In this document: positions 57,570-64,000 of the stretch, one piece after another
Layout of the letters: each line of letters opens with the position of its first letter
Numbering within the stretch: position 1 is the first letter of the stretch
Assembly: GCA_029261295.1 (NCBI GenBank)
Contig: JAJDBP010000002.1
Span: forward strand, 434,001 to 498,000
From: Nitrospirales bacterium
GTDB taxonomy: Bacteria > Nitrospirota > Nitrospiria > Nitrospirales > UBA8639
Reading direction: 5' to 3'
DNA length: 64,000 bases
Translations under genes and position numbers: made by a program
Notes under the pieces: generated by a model
Told to the model about the DNA's origin: nothing
Database searches by the model: none
Seen by the model: the letters and a program-made list of their open reading frames with translations, nothing else

Positions 57570-58056
57570 TCTCCGGTTCGTAGAGTTTTTCGTCTTTTAT
57601 TTCCTTGAATAAAACCATGACTCTTTGGCTCATGGCAAATAGCACCCAACAGATGGAAATGACCGTCAGCAAATAGGCTGCGGCCACGAACCCAAAATTA
57701 TTGATCAAGGCCGTATCTTTGGCTTTGAACGTCTTGGTGGCTGGGTCAAGGTGACCAATCAAGACCATCGTTTTCAATTCACGAATATTTTCCAATGGCG
57801 GACCGGCATATTCCACTGGAAGCGTGGTGGGCCCGTCAATCAATTCAAATGTGGCTTGGCCTTGGTCAACTGCCCCCGACAATGTTCCACTTTTGACCAT
57901 TCCTTGAATTCTAACAGGTTTGGAGGTGGCTGGGCTGTTTAAAACCGTGGCCAGGGAAATTGTGGATAAATCACGCTGATACTGTTGGAAGGTCATTAGA
58001 GCCAAAAGGATTAATCCTCCGACCATGATGGCCCATCGTACATAAAATCCGGTCAT
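57544..58056 (-). CDS. CcmE-like OB-fold protein without the heme-binding His
   Basis: 170 residues, start overlapping the ccmC stop (ATGA). One N-terminal helix, then a CcmE-like OB fold: VRIQGMVKSGTL, ATFELIDGPTTLPVEYAGPPLENIRE. The C-terminal loop does not have the His/Tyr motif of CcmE. Instead a second helix (FVAAAYLLTVISICWVLF) and a short tail follow, in the place where CcmD (a single-helix partner of CcmC) is normally encoded. It may be a CcmD substitute fused to a non-heme OB domain. Confidence 0.7.
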   Translation of the reverse strand: MTGFYVRWAIMVGGLILLALMTFQQYQRDLSTISLATVLNSPATSKPVRIQGMVKSGTLSGAVDQGQATFELIDGPTTLPVEYAGPPLENIRELKTMVLIGHLDPATKTFKAKDTALINNFGFVAAAYLLTVISICWVLFAMSQRVMVLFKEIKDEKLYEPEIDPLGHNK

Positions 58057-58778
58057 GGGGATGTCTGAGAAAAATGCGTCTGACTAAACAGACGACCCTT
58101 TTTAGCATGAAGGAGGTCGGTCAAATACAATATTTGTGTGCGAACCATTACCATATAGGCAAAGAGGAGCCAAGCCCCAATGCTCATGAGGGTTAAGGGA
58201 ATCAGAATGTCATCTGAAATCGCTACGCCGCGGGTCGAAAAAGACATGGGTTGATGTAATGTGCGCCACCATTCCACGGAAAATTTGATAATCGGTAGGT
58301 CAATTCCCCCCACAATGGCTAAGATAGCGGCATAACGACCTCCACGTTCGGGATCATCCACCAGTTTTCTGAGCATCAGATACCCACCTAAGATCAAAAG
58401 CAGCACACTAAAAGACACCAATCGAGGATCCCAAGTCCACCAAGTGTTCCAAGTCGGCTTGGCCCAAATGGAGCCAGTGATCAGCGCGAGGGCGGTAAAC
58501 AGTGCACAAATGCCTGCAGACGCCTGACAGGCATTGTCCACAAGGGGATCCCGTTTCCATAAATACCAAATACTGCCAAAAAATAAAACGGAATAGGCCA
58601 AGGTGCTGGTATGCGCCAGTGGAACATGGACATACATGATCCGGACCAGTTCTCCTTGATAGTAATCGGGCGGAGAGGCAAATAGGCCAATATAGAGCCC
58701 TAAGAAAATACAGACGGCGGCAGCTCCGCCAAACCATCCCTTATACCGCTGAATCCACCGAATAAACCGATTAAGCAT
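58053..58778 (-). CDS. ccmC: Heme exporter protein CcmC
   Basis: 241 residues, six membrane helices. The WWD-type motif WNTWWTWDPRLVSF lies between helices 3 and 4, with the usual His residues (MYVHVPLAH, EWWRTLHQP). It loads heme onto CcmE. The gene starts right after a leader copy found also at 63370-63394, and the natural partner ccmB lies 4.7 kb away. Confidence 0.95.
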   Translation of the reverse strand: MLNRFIRWIQRYKGWFGGAAAVCIFLGLYIGLFASPPDYYQGELVRIMYVHVPLAHTSTLAYSVLFFGSIWYLWKRDPLVDNACQASAGICALFTALALITGSIWAKPTWNTWWTWDPRLVSFSVLLLILGGYLMLRKLVDDPERGGRYAAILAIVGGIDLPIIKFSVEWWRTLHQPMSFSTRGVAISDDILIPLTLMSIGAWLLFAYMVMVRTQILYLTDLLHAKKGRLFSQTHFSQTSP

Positions 58779-58779
58779 A

Positions 58780-58803
58780 TTCCCTATTGTAAACGGACAA
58801 CTC
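58780..58803. repeat. Direct repeat, copy A (ccmC leader)
   Basis: TTCCCTATTGTAAACGGACAACTC, adjoining the ccmC start. Copy B at 63370 shares TTCCC, the exact 13-mer ATTGTAAACGGAC and CTC. Same orientation, 4.6 kb apart. Confidence 0.65.
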
Positions 58804-59135
58804 GACGGAGGAAAGAGCCAGATTGTTCAATACTTGGGTAAAGTCTGTCTTGTATTTAAGGAAAACAATGAGCAAATGTATTTTCTATAGGTGATTCATC
58901 CTGGTTGTCTCGTAGTGCAGAATCCTTTCCTATTACCTGATCTCAACCTATCTATAGCTTCTTTAAAAGAGAGGGCAGAACTTTTTTGAAAATCCTACAC
59001 CGATAGTTCTTTGGATTTCAAAGACCTAGGAATGTTTCCGTTCACTTTCTGCAGTTGCTGGTGGAAGTGCCCAATGGTACTCTTCAAGCAGGCCAGATAT
59101 TAGACGATTGTCTTTTGAAATAAGGAGCATGACAT
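58804..59135. other. Gap upstream of the cassette's plus-strand gene
   Basis: No supported gene. AGGAG at 59123 serves the next gene. The sequence is the start of the cassette and shows no repeat or structure I recognise. Confidence 0.4.
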
Positions 59136-59564
59136 ATGGGAGAAGTTGATGCAGGGCCGGCAGCACCAGCCAAGCCAATGCCAGATTTGACCGCCCTTGA
59201 GGTTGATCCTTCCAAAGGGGAACGGTTCTTTAAGGCCGTCTTAGTGCATTCCAAGCAAGGGACGACCTATCGGATGGTGGCGAAGTCTCTAACTGATGGT
59301 CGGCTTGATCTCGTGCATTTTGTGTGTGATTTAAGTGCTGATGGCACCATGAATGGGAAACGGCGAATTCGGCGAATTGAATCCCAGCGCCCTGAGCGAT
59401 GGGATAAAGAAGTCGAGACCATTCAAAAGGAAATCACCGATAAAGGTGAAGAAGTGCAAAAGGTATGGGCTCATGACTTAACTGGTATTCAGGATGTTGG
59501 AGAACAAGTGGCCAGCCTGGATGCCTGGATGCTTCAAACAGCTAAAGAGATTGTGCCGGCTTAA
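59136..59564 (+). CDS. Unrecognised protein, opposite strand in the cassette
   Basis: 142 residues, AGGAG eight bases before the ATG. A Pro/Ala-rich N-terminus is followed by a compact alpha/beta core (RFFKAVLVHSKQGTTYRMVA, RLDLVHFVCDL) and an acidic helical end. No membrane segment or signal. No family recognised. It is the only plus-strand gene between ccmC and ccmB. Confidence 0.7.
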   Translation: MGEVDAGPAAPAKPMPDLTALEVDPSKGERFFKAVLVHSKQGTTYRMVAKSLTDGRLDLVHFVCDLSADGTMNGKRRIRRIESQRPERWDKEVETIQKEITDKGEEVQKVWAHDLTGIQDVGEQVASLDAWMLQTAKEIVPA

Positions 59565-59621
59565 GGCTTTTGTTGGTTTGAGGTAGGTCGTGCGGGTTTC
59601 CTGTGCTTCTACCTCCCCTGG

Positions 59622-59642
59622 CCCCTCCTTACAAAGGAGGGG
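59622..59642. terminator. Hairpin between convergent genes
   Basis: CCCCTCC and GGAGGGG pair around a seven-base loop. It lies between the unrecognised plus-strand gene and the ATP-grasp gene and may end both transcripts. No long T-run follows. Confidence 0.45.
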
Positions 59643-59655
59643 AACATCAGGATAA

Positions 59656-60927
59656 TTAGACGCGGAAGATTTCTGGGTGCACAGATTTTGTGGGCTGCGG
59701 TTTCATGACCACCTTTAGCTGACTGTGCGATTCTCGCAAGGCTTCTTCTACCTCTGTTGGCTGCGCCCCCCTGGCTACAATGAAACCTAGATAACGTTTA
59801 CCTTCCGGCAAGGGAATAAGCTGGTCACCTGGTTCAGCCGTCATAACCAATTCCTCTACGCCAGAAACCTGTTGTGCCGCCTCTTGCCCCTCCACTCTTT
59901 CTAAAATCCCTTCTTGGGGTATTGGGATCATCATGACGCCCCCTGCTCCTGTCGTTAACTCTAAAGATGGTAGGTCCTTCCCCAGAGCGTGCAGCAGGAT
60001 GAGTTCTTCTAACGACTTGCCTGTTCCAAACTCCAACATTCGAGAACATTTCCCGCCAATACTTCGTGCTGCCACTTCTATGACCCAAATCTCTTGATCG
60101 TTAATTCGTAGTTCTCCATGAACCGGTCCTTCTCGGAGCCCAATAGCTCGTGCTGCTTTCGCGAGCGATTCGGTGATTCGTGCTTGTGATTCAGGAGAAA
60201 GGCGTGAAGGGGTCACGTAAATCGTTTCTTCGAAATAGGGCCCATCGAGTGGGTCCGGTTTATCAAAGAGGGCCAGGGGATGAAATGTGTCCTTCGTGAG
60301 CAAGCCCTCCAATGCGACTTCGATCCCAGGAATAAAGTCCTCGATAAGAATTTGACGACCGGCCACCTCTTGGTCCGGCCTCTCAAGTGTTTTTAACAGA
60401 TGGCGTATTCGATTAAAGGCGTGTTGGAAGCTCACTGAATCATCAGCACGAATGATACCGCAGCTTCCTGAAAGGGTAAGGGGTTTGAGTACGCAGGGAA
60501 ATGCCACCTGTTGGACAATATCCTCTGCGTTCTTGTGGGAGTCCACCACGATAAAGTTTGGACAGGGGAGCCCTGCTTTCTGCAACAGACTCCGCATCGT
60601 GTGTTTGTTGCTTGCGGCACATACTGAATCAATAGAATTTGACGAGAGTCCTAAAGCCTCCGAAAGGGTTGAGGCTAAGACGGCTGTTCCATCGTTCACT
60701 CCGAGGACCACATCAATGGGGGAGGTTTTGGCAAATTCCATCACGGTGGGAACGGCGGTGCTGGAATTGTACAGGTCAACCGTCAGAAAATTATCTGGAG
60801 ATTGGTTTAGGAAATCTGGTGGGGCATCTCCCGCCACGGTCAGGGAGACACCGACCTTTTTAGCCGCTTCCACAAAAGCTTCACCTCTGTAGCTCATGGA
60901 GGGAAGAAGAAGGAGCAAATGTGCCAT
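59656..60927 (-). CDS. ATP-grasp ligase
   Basis: About 423 residues from ATG 60927. N-terminal PreATP-like Rossmann domain, then the ATP-grasp core: KHTMRSLLQKAGLPCPNF, CVLKPLTLSGSCGII (glycine-rich loop), ILIEDFIPGIEVALEGL, GPVHGELRIN and IEVAARSIGGKCS. The C-terminal 100 residues form a cap. It should activate a carboxylate with ATP and join it to an amine or other nucleophile. It starts 71 bases after the radical SAM gene. No good ribosome-binding site is present, so its start may be coupled. Confidence 0.85.
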   Translation of the reverse strand: MAHLLLLLPSMSYRGEAFVEAAKKVGVSLTVAGDAPPDFLNQSPDNFLTVDLYNSSTAVPTVMEFAKTSPIDVVLGVNDGTAVLASTLSEALGLSSNSIDSVCAASNKHTMRSLLQKAGLPCPNFIVVDSHKNAEDIVQQVAFPCVLKPLTLSGSCGIIRADDSVSFQHAFNRIRHLLKTLERPDQEVAGRQILIEDFIPGIEVALEGLLTKDTFHPLALFDKPDPLDGPYFEETIYVTPSRLSPESQARITESLAKAARAIGLREGPVHGELRINDQEIWVIEVAARSIGGKCSRMLEFGTGKSLEELILLHALGKDLPSLELTTGAGGVMMIPIPQEGILERVEGQEAAQQVSGVEELVMTAEPGDQLIPLPEGKRYLGFIVARGAQPTEVEEALRESHSQLKVVMKPQPTKSVHPEIFRV

Positions 60928-60998
60928 GGCTAATGGGTGAGGATAACCGTATAGGGTGAAGAACAACAGGTGGTTCGTTCTTCTTTACCCATGTGGCG

Positions 60999-62573
60999 TC
61001 AGCTTTTAGACGAGCATTCGACGGAATGAAATTGTTCCGTTGTGGGTTCTGCACAACAAAACCAGGGTTCGGTCATTCGTGGCGGTCGAATACGATCTGG
61101 ATTCAGGGAAGCCGTTTTGTTTAATGCCGCAAAATCGAGGTCTGCGGCGTCATAGACCAATTCCCATAACCGATAAAAGGTGTGCTCAGGATCTTCATTG
61201 GTACTGTTCTCCACGACCTTGGAGACGGCTTGTTGCAACGCGTCCATTCGTGGATCAGGGTGAGCCCATGTATGTTGAAACTTCTGTTGATTAAGCGGAC
61301 CGAGAAACTGGGCCATTGGTGTTGGGTGAGTCTCTGGTGGGGTTAACAATGCCGAGCCGGGAGGGATCAATAAGCGTACGCTATATTGTACGGGATCAAT
61401 GCAATCGATCAATCCATGTTGTTCAACCAAGCCAAACATTTCGGCATAGTCTTCTAGGGTTGTCCATGGAGTGAAGGCCACGAGTGAAGGGCGAAGCGTA
61501 ATGCCCTCAGACCGCAGAATGTCGTGCGCCTGGAAGATGTCTTGGCGTGTATGGCCTTTGTCCAAATGTAGGAGGACATTCTCGCTAAATGATTCCACAG
61601 CAGAAATGACGAACAGACATCCTAGTCGACTGAACTCTTTGAACGTCGATTGGTGTTTCAGGATGTGTTCAATTTTGGTGGTAAAATCAAAGGTAATATG
61701 GGGGAACTCTTCATGCAATGCTCGAACAATATTCAGGGAATGACCAGGACCATTTAAAAAGTCGGGATCCCCTAAAGTTATGTGGACGGCGCCGGCCTTT
61801 ACCTGTTGTCGAATATCTGCCAACACCACGGGAGCAGGGAACAAGAAAAATCGGCCCTGATACACCGGGACAATGGGGCAATGTAAGCAGGTATGCAGAC
61901 AGCCACGACTGGCTTCCACGTATCCCACGACATGTTTCTTCCCCTGGTTTTCTAAGCCTGCGTATTCGGAGAGAATGGGAAGGGCTTTGCGTGAGGGTGT
62001 AGGAAATGTTCCCGCATCAGGCGTGTCCTTGGTTGAGCCACTTGATTGTCCGGTAATTCGTTTCAGATAGGGCGGAGCAATAGAATTAGCGAAACTTATA
62101 CCCTCAACCTGAATCGGAAAATCTAAGCCAGGTTTATTTGGTGAAGAGTGAGATCTTGCTAAGTGATCAAGAAGATTTACCAACGGTATTTCATATTCTC
62201 CGCCGATTACCGAGTCGGCTTGGTGCTTGAGCAAATATTCCGCGTTCAGCGAGGCATAGAGCCCAAAAAAACAGATGTGTGCGTTTGAATTGAGCTGACG
62301 AACCCGTTCGGCTACCTGGCACCCCAAAGAAAGTGCGGTATGCATGGGTACGGAAATACCAACTACGTGGGCTTGTGCCACACGTTGTTCATCAAACTTT
62401 TCCACAGATAAGTCTAGAGTGTAGGGGGCATAGCCCTTCTGCTCAAGAAACCCCACAGGCTGGGCCAGGCCAATTGGTTGATGGCCCAACTCATAACAAG
62501 AAATAAGGAGGATGGCTCCTGCCTGTTGTAGAGGCCTGTCGGCTATTATGGTTGGTGAGGACGTTTTGCTCAT
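60999..62573 (-). CDS. Radical SAM protein with CCAEP tail and B12-binding-like domain
   Basis: 524 residues. N-terminal B12-binding-like Rossmann region (about 20-150), a linker, then CLHTCLHC (CxxxCxxC) for the 4Fe-4S cluster at about 230 and the radical SAM barrel. The chain closes with the tail TEPWFCCAEPTTEQ. I recall a family named for this tail, CUAEP/CCAEP, in which the first Cys-Cys pair may be Cys-selenocysteine; here both are Cys. Cofactor chemistry is likely radical, substrate unknown. Partner of the ATP-grasp and DUF169 genes. Confidence 0.82.
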   Translation of the reverse strand: MSKTSSPTIIADRPLQQAGAILLISCYELGHQPIGLAQPVGFLEQKGYAPYTLDLSVEKFDEQRVAQAHVVGISVPMHTALSLGCQVAERVRQLNSNAHICFFGLYASLNAEYLLKHQADSVIGGEYEIPLVNLLDHLARSHSSPNKPGLDFPIQVEGISFANSIAPPYLKRITGQSSGSTKDTPDAGTFPTPSRKALPILSEYAGLENQGKKHVVGYVEASRGCLHTCLHCPIVPVYQGRFFLFPAPVVLADIRQQVKAGAVHITLGDPDFLNGPGHSLNIVRALHEEFPHITFDFTTKIEHILKHQSTFKEFSRLGCLFVISAVESFSENVLLHLDKGHTRQDIFQAHDILRSEGITLRPSLVAFTPWTTLEDYAEMFGLVEQHGLIDCIDPVQYSVRLLIPPGSALLTPPETHPTPMAQFLGPLNQQKFQHTWAHPDPRMDALQQAVSKVVENSTNEDPEHTFYRLWELVYDAADLDFAALNKTASLNPDRIRPPRMTEPWFCCAEPTTEQFHSVECSSKS

Positions 62574-62607
62574 CTTGTTTTGTTATTTCTCGAGAACAAT
62601 ATGGTGT

Positions 62608-63336
62608 TTAATCTTTTGTGAATCGACGCCCATCAGTGTTGGCGTAACTTGCAACGCGGGCATTGGCTTCACGTCGAGCTTCCAGCTTTTCGACCACTTC
62701 AGTAAATCGCTTTCCTGGGATTGCACATGTCATCTCATCGGGCGACATACCGGTGCGAATCCGGCTCAGTGTGCATCCAGTACTCATGGCGATCTGGTTC
62801 TGTTCTTTCGCCAATGGAATGATATGACACTGGGGTTTTCCGACAATAGGCATGTCGCTAAAAGCATCATGTAGCACCATTCCTTGATACGCGCTTAGCC
62901 GGAGAAGAATCACATCGGGTTCGATGCTGGTCTGGGCAATCGGGCCATAGGTGATAAACTTGTACCGAGTTTTGATGACTGGCAGTTGCATCGCCTCTTG
63001 GGGAGTGACCCACTCACTCTCTAAAAGGCCACGAACATCCTCATTTTGCATAACCTCATCTAATGTCTTTAGCCCGTGAGTGACGCTTCCGACGCTGCAA
63101 TTAAAATGATCATCTGCGTTGGTCGTGAATGTGCGCTCTTCAGATTGAATCCAAAAGACACAGCCTGCCGTGACTTTTCCGGTGCGGCCATCTGCACTCG
63201 GGTCAGGAATCTTTCCCTCATGTAACGGGACCCCTTCAGGGGCATCCTGAGAAAAGGTTATGGCAATAGGTGCGTGTGAAAGCCCCAATGCTTTTTTTAA
63301 TCGCGTACCAGCTTCTTTCCAATCAACAGATACCAT
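62608..63336 (-). CDS. DUF169 family protein
   Basis: 242 residues with the DUF169 pattern: APIAITFSQDAPEGV near the start, AGCVFWI, HFNCSVGSVTHG, STGCTLSRIRTGM and MTCAIPG. The four conserved Cys suggest an iron-sulfur or other metal site. Such proteins often sit beside radical SAM or corrinoid enzymes. Strong GGAGG seven bases before the ATG, so it is the first gene of the cassette as transcribed (DUF169, radical SAM, ATP-grasp). Confidence 0.85.
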   Translation of the reverse strand: MVSVDWKEAGTRLKKALGLSHAPIAITFSQDAPEGVPLHEGKIPDPSADGRTGKVTAGCVFWIQSEERTFTTNADDHFNCSVGSVTHGLKTLDEVMQNEDVRGLLESEWVTPQEAMQLPVIKTRYKFITYGPIAQTSIEPDVILLRLSAYQGMVLHDAFSDMPIVGKPQCHIIPLAKEQNQIAMSTGCTLSRIRTGMSPDEMTCAIPGKRFTEVVEKLEARREANARVASYANTDGRRFTKD

Positions 63337-63369
63337 CTTTATGCCTCCAATTTTTCAAAAGAATCATGT

Positions 63370-63394
63370 TTCCCATTGTAAACGGACTATCTCA
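63370..63394. repeat. Direct repeat, copy B
   Basis: TTCCCATTGTAAACGGACTATCTC, the copy of the ccmC leader at 58780. It lies between the DUF169 gene and the end of ccmB. On the minus strand the match runs to the base before an ATG in both copies, then stops. Confidence 0.65.
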
Positions 63395-63458: not shown

Positions 63459-64000
63459 TTACGAATCTAATATGAATTCGAAGAGCCAGAAGGAGACGAC
63501 GGTGAAGATAATATCGAAAATGACTAGTAGATGGAGCCATTGCGAATAGAAGGCATAAGGGTCACCGTTGAGGGTGCCGCGTGTGGCTTCGACCGCAGCG
63601 ATCATGACCGGGACGGCCAAGGGCAAGAGCAGGACAGGAAGCATGACTTCTCTGGCACGAATTTGCACCGTTAAGGCTGAGAAGAGGGTGCCAACCGAGG
63701 ATAGCCCTATTGTCGCAAGAAAAAAGACCAGTAACAGCATGCCGATGGCTTCGACGACTTCTAGGTTGAAAAAGATGACGAAAAGGGGAAATAACAAAAT
63801 TTCTACAGTAAACATAAACAGAAAGTTCGCTGTGACTTTCCCGAGATAAATTGCGCCTTTTGGGACAGGACTCATTTGCAACGATTCGATGCAGTCGTTT
63901 TGTAACTCTGAGGTAAAGGATTTTCCAATTCCAATTATGCCGGTAAAGGTGAAAGCCACCCAAATAATGCCCGCGATGAGTTGGCGAGCTGCGTCCTGAT
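63459..64000 (-). CDS. ccmB: Heme exporter subunit CcmB, 5' end outside window
   Basis: The 3' 180 codons are present; the frame stays open to the window edge through IAGIIWVAFTF, typical of the middle of CcmB. The motif FTSELQNDCIESLQMSPVPKGAIYLGK is the cytoplasmic loop (E-x8-LxxSP) of the family. Four membrane segments follow. CcmB forms the ABC complex with CcmA, which should lie beyond the right end, to support release of heme-loaded CcmE from CcmC. Confidence 0.92.
   Translation of the reverse strand, partial: QDAARQLIAGIIWVAFTFTGIIGIGKSFTSELQNDCIESLQMSPVPKGAIYLGKVTANFLFMFTVEILLFPLFVIFFNLEVVEAIGMLLLVFFLATIGLSSVGTLFSALTVQIRAREVMLPVLLLPLAVPVMIAAVEATRGTLNGDPYAFYSQWLHLLVIFDIIFTVVSFWLFEFILDS

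Follow-up and report, generated by a model that had tools for sequence, protein, structure and literature searches.

A radical SAM enzyme with a CUAEP/CCAEP tail and its ATP-grasp ligase partner in a Nitrospirales gene cassette: a putative two-enzyme pathway

We analysed a stretch of 64,000 nucleotides (the window) from a Nitrospirales bacterium (GenBank assembly GCA_029261295.1, contig JAJDBP010000002.1, positions 434,001 to 498,000 of the forward strand) and describe here a cassette of four genes, in which a radical S-adenosylmethionine (SAM) enzyme of the CUAEP/CCAEP-tail family lies beside the gene of an ATP-grasp ligase. These two enzymes are obligate partners in the genomes tested, which belong to four bacterial lineages. 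An initial annotation of the window had placed three genes on the minus strand and a fourth gene on the plus strand, and all four were found in place. The cassette and the two genes flanking it are as follows.

62608..63336, minus strand: DUF169 (COG2043) protein, 242 amino acids (aa), match to PF02596
60999..62573, minus strand: radical SAM enzyme with CUAEP/CCAEP tail, 524 aa, match to NF040546
59656..~60927, minus strand: predicted ATP-grasp L-amino acid ligase, 423 aa from ATG, match to PF13535 and PF18603 LAL_C2
59136..59564, plus strand: ORF4, 142 aa, convergent with the ligase gene, without Pfam or NCBIfam family
63459..63998, minus strand: ccmB, upstream flank outside the pathway, cut by the window end, PF03379 (109.8 bits)
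58053..58778, minus strand: ccmC, downstream flank outside the pathway, PF01578 (122 bits)

The ligase gene starts with a TTG at 60966 in the list of open reading frames and with an ATG at 60927 in its homologues. The cassette had been described as inserted into the ccm locus, between ccmB and ccmC, and this description holds, as the two ccm genes are separated by only 77–79 bp in three congeners (L226, L230, L233). Two of these three (G012, G014) have the cassette at another site, and it is also present outside the ccm locus in other genera. Insertion at ccm is thus specific to the lineage and tells little about function; a functional tie to ccm was therefore rejected. A ribosomal-peptide pathway was rejected as well, because no conserved candidate for a precursor gene was seen in the cassette.

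The radical SAM enzyme and the ligase

Profile searches identified the radical SAM protein as a clear member of the CUAEP/CCAEP-tail family (NF040546, 644 bits against the curated cut-off of 500). Its second-best NCBIfam model is ArsL (NF040542), for which the score of 311.6 bits falls below the cut-off of 450. The CX3CX2C motif is located at C225-C229-C232 and the tail FCCAEP at residues 505–510, the tail sequence containing MTEPWFCCAEPTTEQF. Alignment of 85 family members from Nitrospirota, Chloroflexota, Acidimicrobiia and Alphaproteobacteria revealed that E502, W504, C506, C/U507 and P510 (window numbering) are invariant and that the consensus W[FY]C[C/U][AS]EP is nearly so across the family. 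Conserved cysteines of the family are limited to the CX3CX2C motif and the two tail positions. While the tail recognized by the initial annotation is thus conserved, the B12-like domain assigned to the same protein is reduced to a weak likeness: the N-terminal domain matches the B12-binding family PF02310 with 30.1 bits, under the cut-off of 32.1, and no DxHxxG cobalamin motif was seen in this domain.

Tail position 507 is a cysteine in Nitrospirota and Alphaproteobacteria and an in-frame TGA in all of the Chloroflexota loci and part of those of the Acidimicrobiia. The 42 bases following this codon fold better than shuffled sequences in the 32 selenocysteine (Sec) loci only (median z -1.37, compared to 0.20 in the 54 Cys loci; p 2e-6), a pattern that a selenocysteine insertion sequence (SECIS) element would produce. 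Sec at position 507 is genuine in those lineages, and the hairpin is SECIS-like. No selD was found in the window genome, which is consistent with the Cys at its tail position, and the gene is absent in almost all cassette-bearing relatives too; selenium was therefore rejected as a general substrate of the pathway. One acidimicrobial genome (G840; L169, L168) contains two genes of the CUAEP family, one with TGA (Sec) in its tail and the other with Cys.

The ligase contains an ATP-grasp domain (PF13535, 117.8 bits) and an LAL_C2 domain (PF18603, 60.1 bits). The solved structure nearest to it is that of the L-amino acid ligase BL00235 (PDB 3vot), which scores 232.7 bits to the family profile, and on sequence grounds the enzyme is assigned to the L-amino acid ligase (BL00235) type.

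The cassette genes recur as neighbours in other genomes. Of 90 radical SAM loci searched by tblastn within 3.5 kb, 39 have the ligase next to the radical SAM gene (21/28 in Nitrospirota, 12/25 in Acidimicrobiia, 5/9 in Alphaproteobacteria, 1/20 in Chloroflexota and 0/8 in the small-genome Acidimicrobiia), and DUF169, which is a frequent yet not universal neighbour, is likewise adjacent in 25 (19/28 in Nitrospirota and 6/25 in Acidimicrobiia). The partnership extends to genomes in which the two genes are unlinked. Using a profile made from 12 cassette ligases in a genome-wide search, we found the ligase in 47 of 49 radical-SAM-positive genomes and in none of the 12 negative ones (Fisher p 5e-11), where the positives were selected on the presence of the radical SAM gene, most of them being picked for non-adjacent radical SAM and ligase genes, and the negatives are few. 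Scores in the positive genomes are typically 370–600 bits, and 18 of the 20 positive Chloroflexota genomes contain the ligase. Both enzymes are also present in three Acidimicrobiia genomes of 0.6–1.1 Mb, where the ligase is more diverged (261–272 bits). The proposal of a small biosynthetic pathway, made in the initial annotation, gains support from this co-occurrence, and neither of the two findings that would have spoken against it, genes seldom neighbouring one another in other genomes or a variable tail, was obtained.

In the 0.6–1.1 Mb Acidimicrobiia (L194-L201, L255-L256), the diverged CCAEP radical SAM gene is located beside genes for a luciferase-like monooxygenase and a flavin reductase, and the ligase gene lies with nfuA at another site. 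Our literature search returned no paper on CUAEP/CCAEP, and thus none naming a product or partners, and no paper joining DUF169 with radical SAM. As far as the literature was searched, the pathway relation between radical SAM enzyme and ligase is undescribed.

Accessory proteins of the pathway genes

Two genes of iron and iron-sulfur (Fe-S) metabolism, nfuA and the YggX-type gene, are more constant extra partners than DUF169, and both are absent from the window cassette. nfuA (PF01106 type, Pfam-checked in representatives) is found as a neighbour in Acidimicrobiia, Alphaproteobacteria and other Nitrospirota. Outside Chloroflexota, it is positioned 12–310 bp upstream of the unlinked ligase gene in 21 of 22 loci, the exception being near a contig end. 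Where the pathway genes are linked, the order is an operon nfuA-radical SAM-ligase in Alphaproteobacteria, and nfuA divergent from ligase-radical SAM in Acidimicrobiia. When the radical SAM and ligase genes are split, nfuA goes with the ligase (a possible exception is L193, on an incomplete contig), and the role of NfuA is therefore not simply that of supplying clusters to the radical SAM enzyme.

Among the 20 Chloroflexota genomes covered, a YggX-type gene (PF04362) neighbours the radical SAM gene in 8 and the ligase gene in 8 others, and in one genome the YggX, radical SAM and ligase genes are all together. It is usually paired with a formyltransferase-like gene, and this pair displays a nearly complementary split between the radical SAM and the ligase loci (L146-L165, L237-L254).

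In the window cassette the accessory positions are occupied by DUF169 and ORF4. Membership of the former in the DUF169 family is clear (PF02596, 83.7 bits against a gathering cut-off of 27). Its description as Cys-rich has to be corrected to five cysteines in 242 aa, four of which (C59, C80, C170 and C188) are invariant in all 19 cassette homologues, as is H77. This set of four invariant cysteines and a histidine suggests a metal or Fe-S site. The predicted structure of the DUF169 protein is only moderate in confidence (predicted local distance difference test, pLDDT, 73). Neither for DUF169 nor for ORF4 was there a match by sequence to a solved structure worth reporting, and Foldseek gave none below E 0.09. 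In Desulfovibrio, a DUF169 gene has been described near a TauE-type exporter gene (PMC4001038).

ORF4 follows the radical SAM gene closely in Nitrospirales, being present in 21/21 radical-SAM-positive relatives and in 1/39 others; within the genus the counts are 10/10 and 0/11. The AlphaFold model of ORF4 is confident (pLDDT 85.6). The top VIA rows in its comparison with folds are PARP WGR domains with Z 5.6, which is inside the background range, and the best Foldseek hit (E 0.24) is to folds other than WGR. ORF4 is thus a cassette-specific protein for which these comparisons gave no convincing solved relative. The one copy among the 39 others is a solo ORF4 homologue, 66% identical, in G032 (L277:7854-8264) without recognisable cassette remains nearby; it is perhaps a remnant or has an independent role.

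Proposed pathway, its alternatives and known systems

The chemistry that might be expected of the radical SAM enzyme comes from ArsL, which moves the 3-amino-3-carboxypropyl (ACP) group from SAM to As(III) (PMC8552651; review PMC12159101). ArsL is taken as the sister family of the CUAEP enzymes: in our tree, in which branches are long and the rooting is tentative, the four ArsL sequences group in a clade of their own next to them. An ATP-grasp gene is likewise found in plasmid-borne ArsL clusters of Priestia, Alicyclobacillus and Klebsiella. Such pairing of both radical SAM branches with enzymes of the L-amino acid ligase type is expected if both make an alpha-amino acid which is later coupled.

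With roughly even confidence, we propose that the cassette represents a local form of a two-enzyme pathway found widely, in which an ArsL-like enzyme makes an amino acid, a ligase couples it and the product has a role connected with iron, Fe-S clusters or thiophilic elements. The ACP chemistry, its acceptor, the dipeptide-like product and the physiological role are what we infer for this pathway. In the first step, the ArsL-like radical SAM enzyme would make an unusual amino acid, by analogy through transfer of the ACP group from SAM. In the second step, the BL00235-type ligase would use ATP to activate the carboxylate of an amino acid and form an amide with a second one, and a dipeptide-like metabolite would result. 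This metabolite may work in the upkeep of iron and Fe-S clusters, or against a thiophilic element that damages Fe-S clusters. Accessory proteins would vary by lineage, with nfuA in several of them, YggX in Chloroflexota, and DUF169 and ORF4 in the window cassette. Since the accessory proteins are largely connected with iron and Fe-S clusters, iron/Fe-S upkeep or handling of a thiophilic element seems the most likely setting of the product. That genomes of 0.6–1.1 Mb retain the pathway, and that nfuA or YggX constantly accompanies it, speaks for basic physiology and not for sporadic antibiosis. A more far-reaching version, in which the ArsL-like (seleno)enzyme and its dedicated ligase make a previously undescribed small molecule that several free-living lineages, including those with very small genomes, use generally as cofactor, carrier or protectant for iron/Fe-S, is unlikely.

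Several observations weigh against the proposed pathway. Gene order and linkage vary among the loci, DUF169 and ORF4 are not universal, and nfuA could be a mere housekeeping neighbour. The ACP transfer is extrapolated from a sister family which is only ~30–38% identical. The ligase of the ArsL clusters scores 147 bits to our profile and is more distant than BL00235, so the shared pairing could be convergent. In the fetched flanks of the CUAEP loci, no ArsR, ArsM, ArsN, ArsI, ArsH, ArsB, ArsQ or efflux gene was found apart from distant matches in L154, and ArsM does not co-occur with the cassette (3/21 with and 6/39 without the radical SAM gene). The acceptor therefore need not be arsenic, and arsenite methyltransferase was rejected as a partner on the same counts.

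A different radical chemistry, in which a 5'-deoxyadenosyl radical acts or sulfur or selenium is inserted, with NfuA reloading an auxiliary cluster and the ligase building a low-molecular-weight thiol or selenol, seems unlikely. NfuA reloads the consumed auxiliary cluster of lipoyl synthase, nfuA or YggX stands beside the pathway genes in four lineages, and iron or sulfur might be bound by the CC/CU tail. However, the cysteines conserved in the family are too few for a standard auxiliary cluster, the association of nfuA with the ligase after a split is not that expected of a cluster donor, and the window genome is without selD.

An arsenic pathway proper, which would make an arsinothricin-type amino acid from As(III) bound at CC/CU, with the ligase masking it as a dipeptide (antibiotic pro-drug or detoxification), is likewise judged improbable. 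It would agree with the sister relationship to ArsL and the retained tandem Cys, with the ATP-grasp ligase in some ArsL loci, and with the occurrence of other arsenic enzymes, such as arsenite methyltransferase, as selenoproteins (PMC13188914). On the other hand, the arsenic genes are missing from the loci and ArsM shows no co-occurrence, as mentioned above, the third Cys of the ArsL tail is not retained, and conservation in very small genomes would be unusual for an antibiotic.

Modification of NfuA, YggX or ORF4 by the ligase, either alone or with the product of the radical SAM enzyme, is quite improbable in our view. The ligase gene is tightly beside nfuA and the YggX-like proteins of these loci have Gly/Lys-rich C-terminal tails, but the NfuA tails resemble ordinary NfuA ends (judged by eye), and the ligase, with its LAL_C2 domain, groups with the L-amino acid ligases, among which those of solved structure form dipeptides. 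Chance association of unrelated genes travelling together, with the ccm site as their common factor, can hardly be entertained: the cassette is patchy in distribution and mobile between sites, but radical SAM enzyme and ligase co-occur unlinked in four lineages and ORF4 follows the cassette strictly within a single genus.

Two sets of loci are worth describing separately. Among the CUAEP loci, L154 (G478, Chloroflexota) alone has both ArsM- and ArsR-like matches in its fetched stretch, which lie several kb from the radical SAM gene and are probably a coincidence; weak methyltransferase matches are also present in a few small-genome loci. The plasmids NZ_CP086209.1, NC_013206.1 and NZ_CP028479.1 (L207, L208 and L210) carry an ArsL-type gene with an RCCLKC tail together with an ATP-grasp gene, and their clusters, which are without ArsQ, include an aquaporin or MFS gene, a GTP-binding protein gene and often ArsM. 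Their make-up suggests a variant arsQML cluster for an arsinothricin peptide.

If the two-enzyme pathway proposed here is correct, a radical SAM family that has a name and no function would gain both an obligate partner enzyme in a defined pathway and a physiological context open to testing. ArsL is among the few CX3CX2C enzymes in which the other SAM bond is broken, and how widespread such chemistry is would be seen from a large sister family whose tail contains Cys-Sec.

Compared with known systems, the CUAEP enzyme has in common with ArsL the B12-like N-terminal domain, the CX3CX2C motif and the tandem Cys near the C-terminus; residues shared in the alignment include D269, D271, K339, W370, Q396, W436 and the tandem C506-C507. 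The ArsL tail, which reportedly binds As(III), is a terminal RCCLKC, whereas the CUAEP enzyme has a longer C-terminal region followed by CCAEP or CUAEP, so that only the tandem CC is common to both and the third Cys of RCCLKC is missing. Unlike ArsL loci, the CUAEP loci are without ArsM, ArsQ, ArsN1 and ArsR nearby, and in other lineages the enzyme is often a selenoprotein. The cassette ligase shares its ATP-grasp and LAL_C2 domains with BL00235 and resembles the alanine-anticapsin ligase BacD more distantly, but compared to both it forms a distinct subfamily, which is highly conserved and goes with the CUAEP radical SAM gene. The NF040546 family had already been named by NCBIfam; to it, the present analysis adds the ligase partner and the link with nfuA and YggX.

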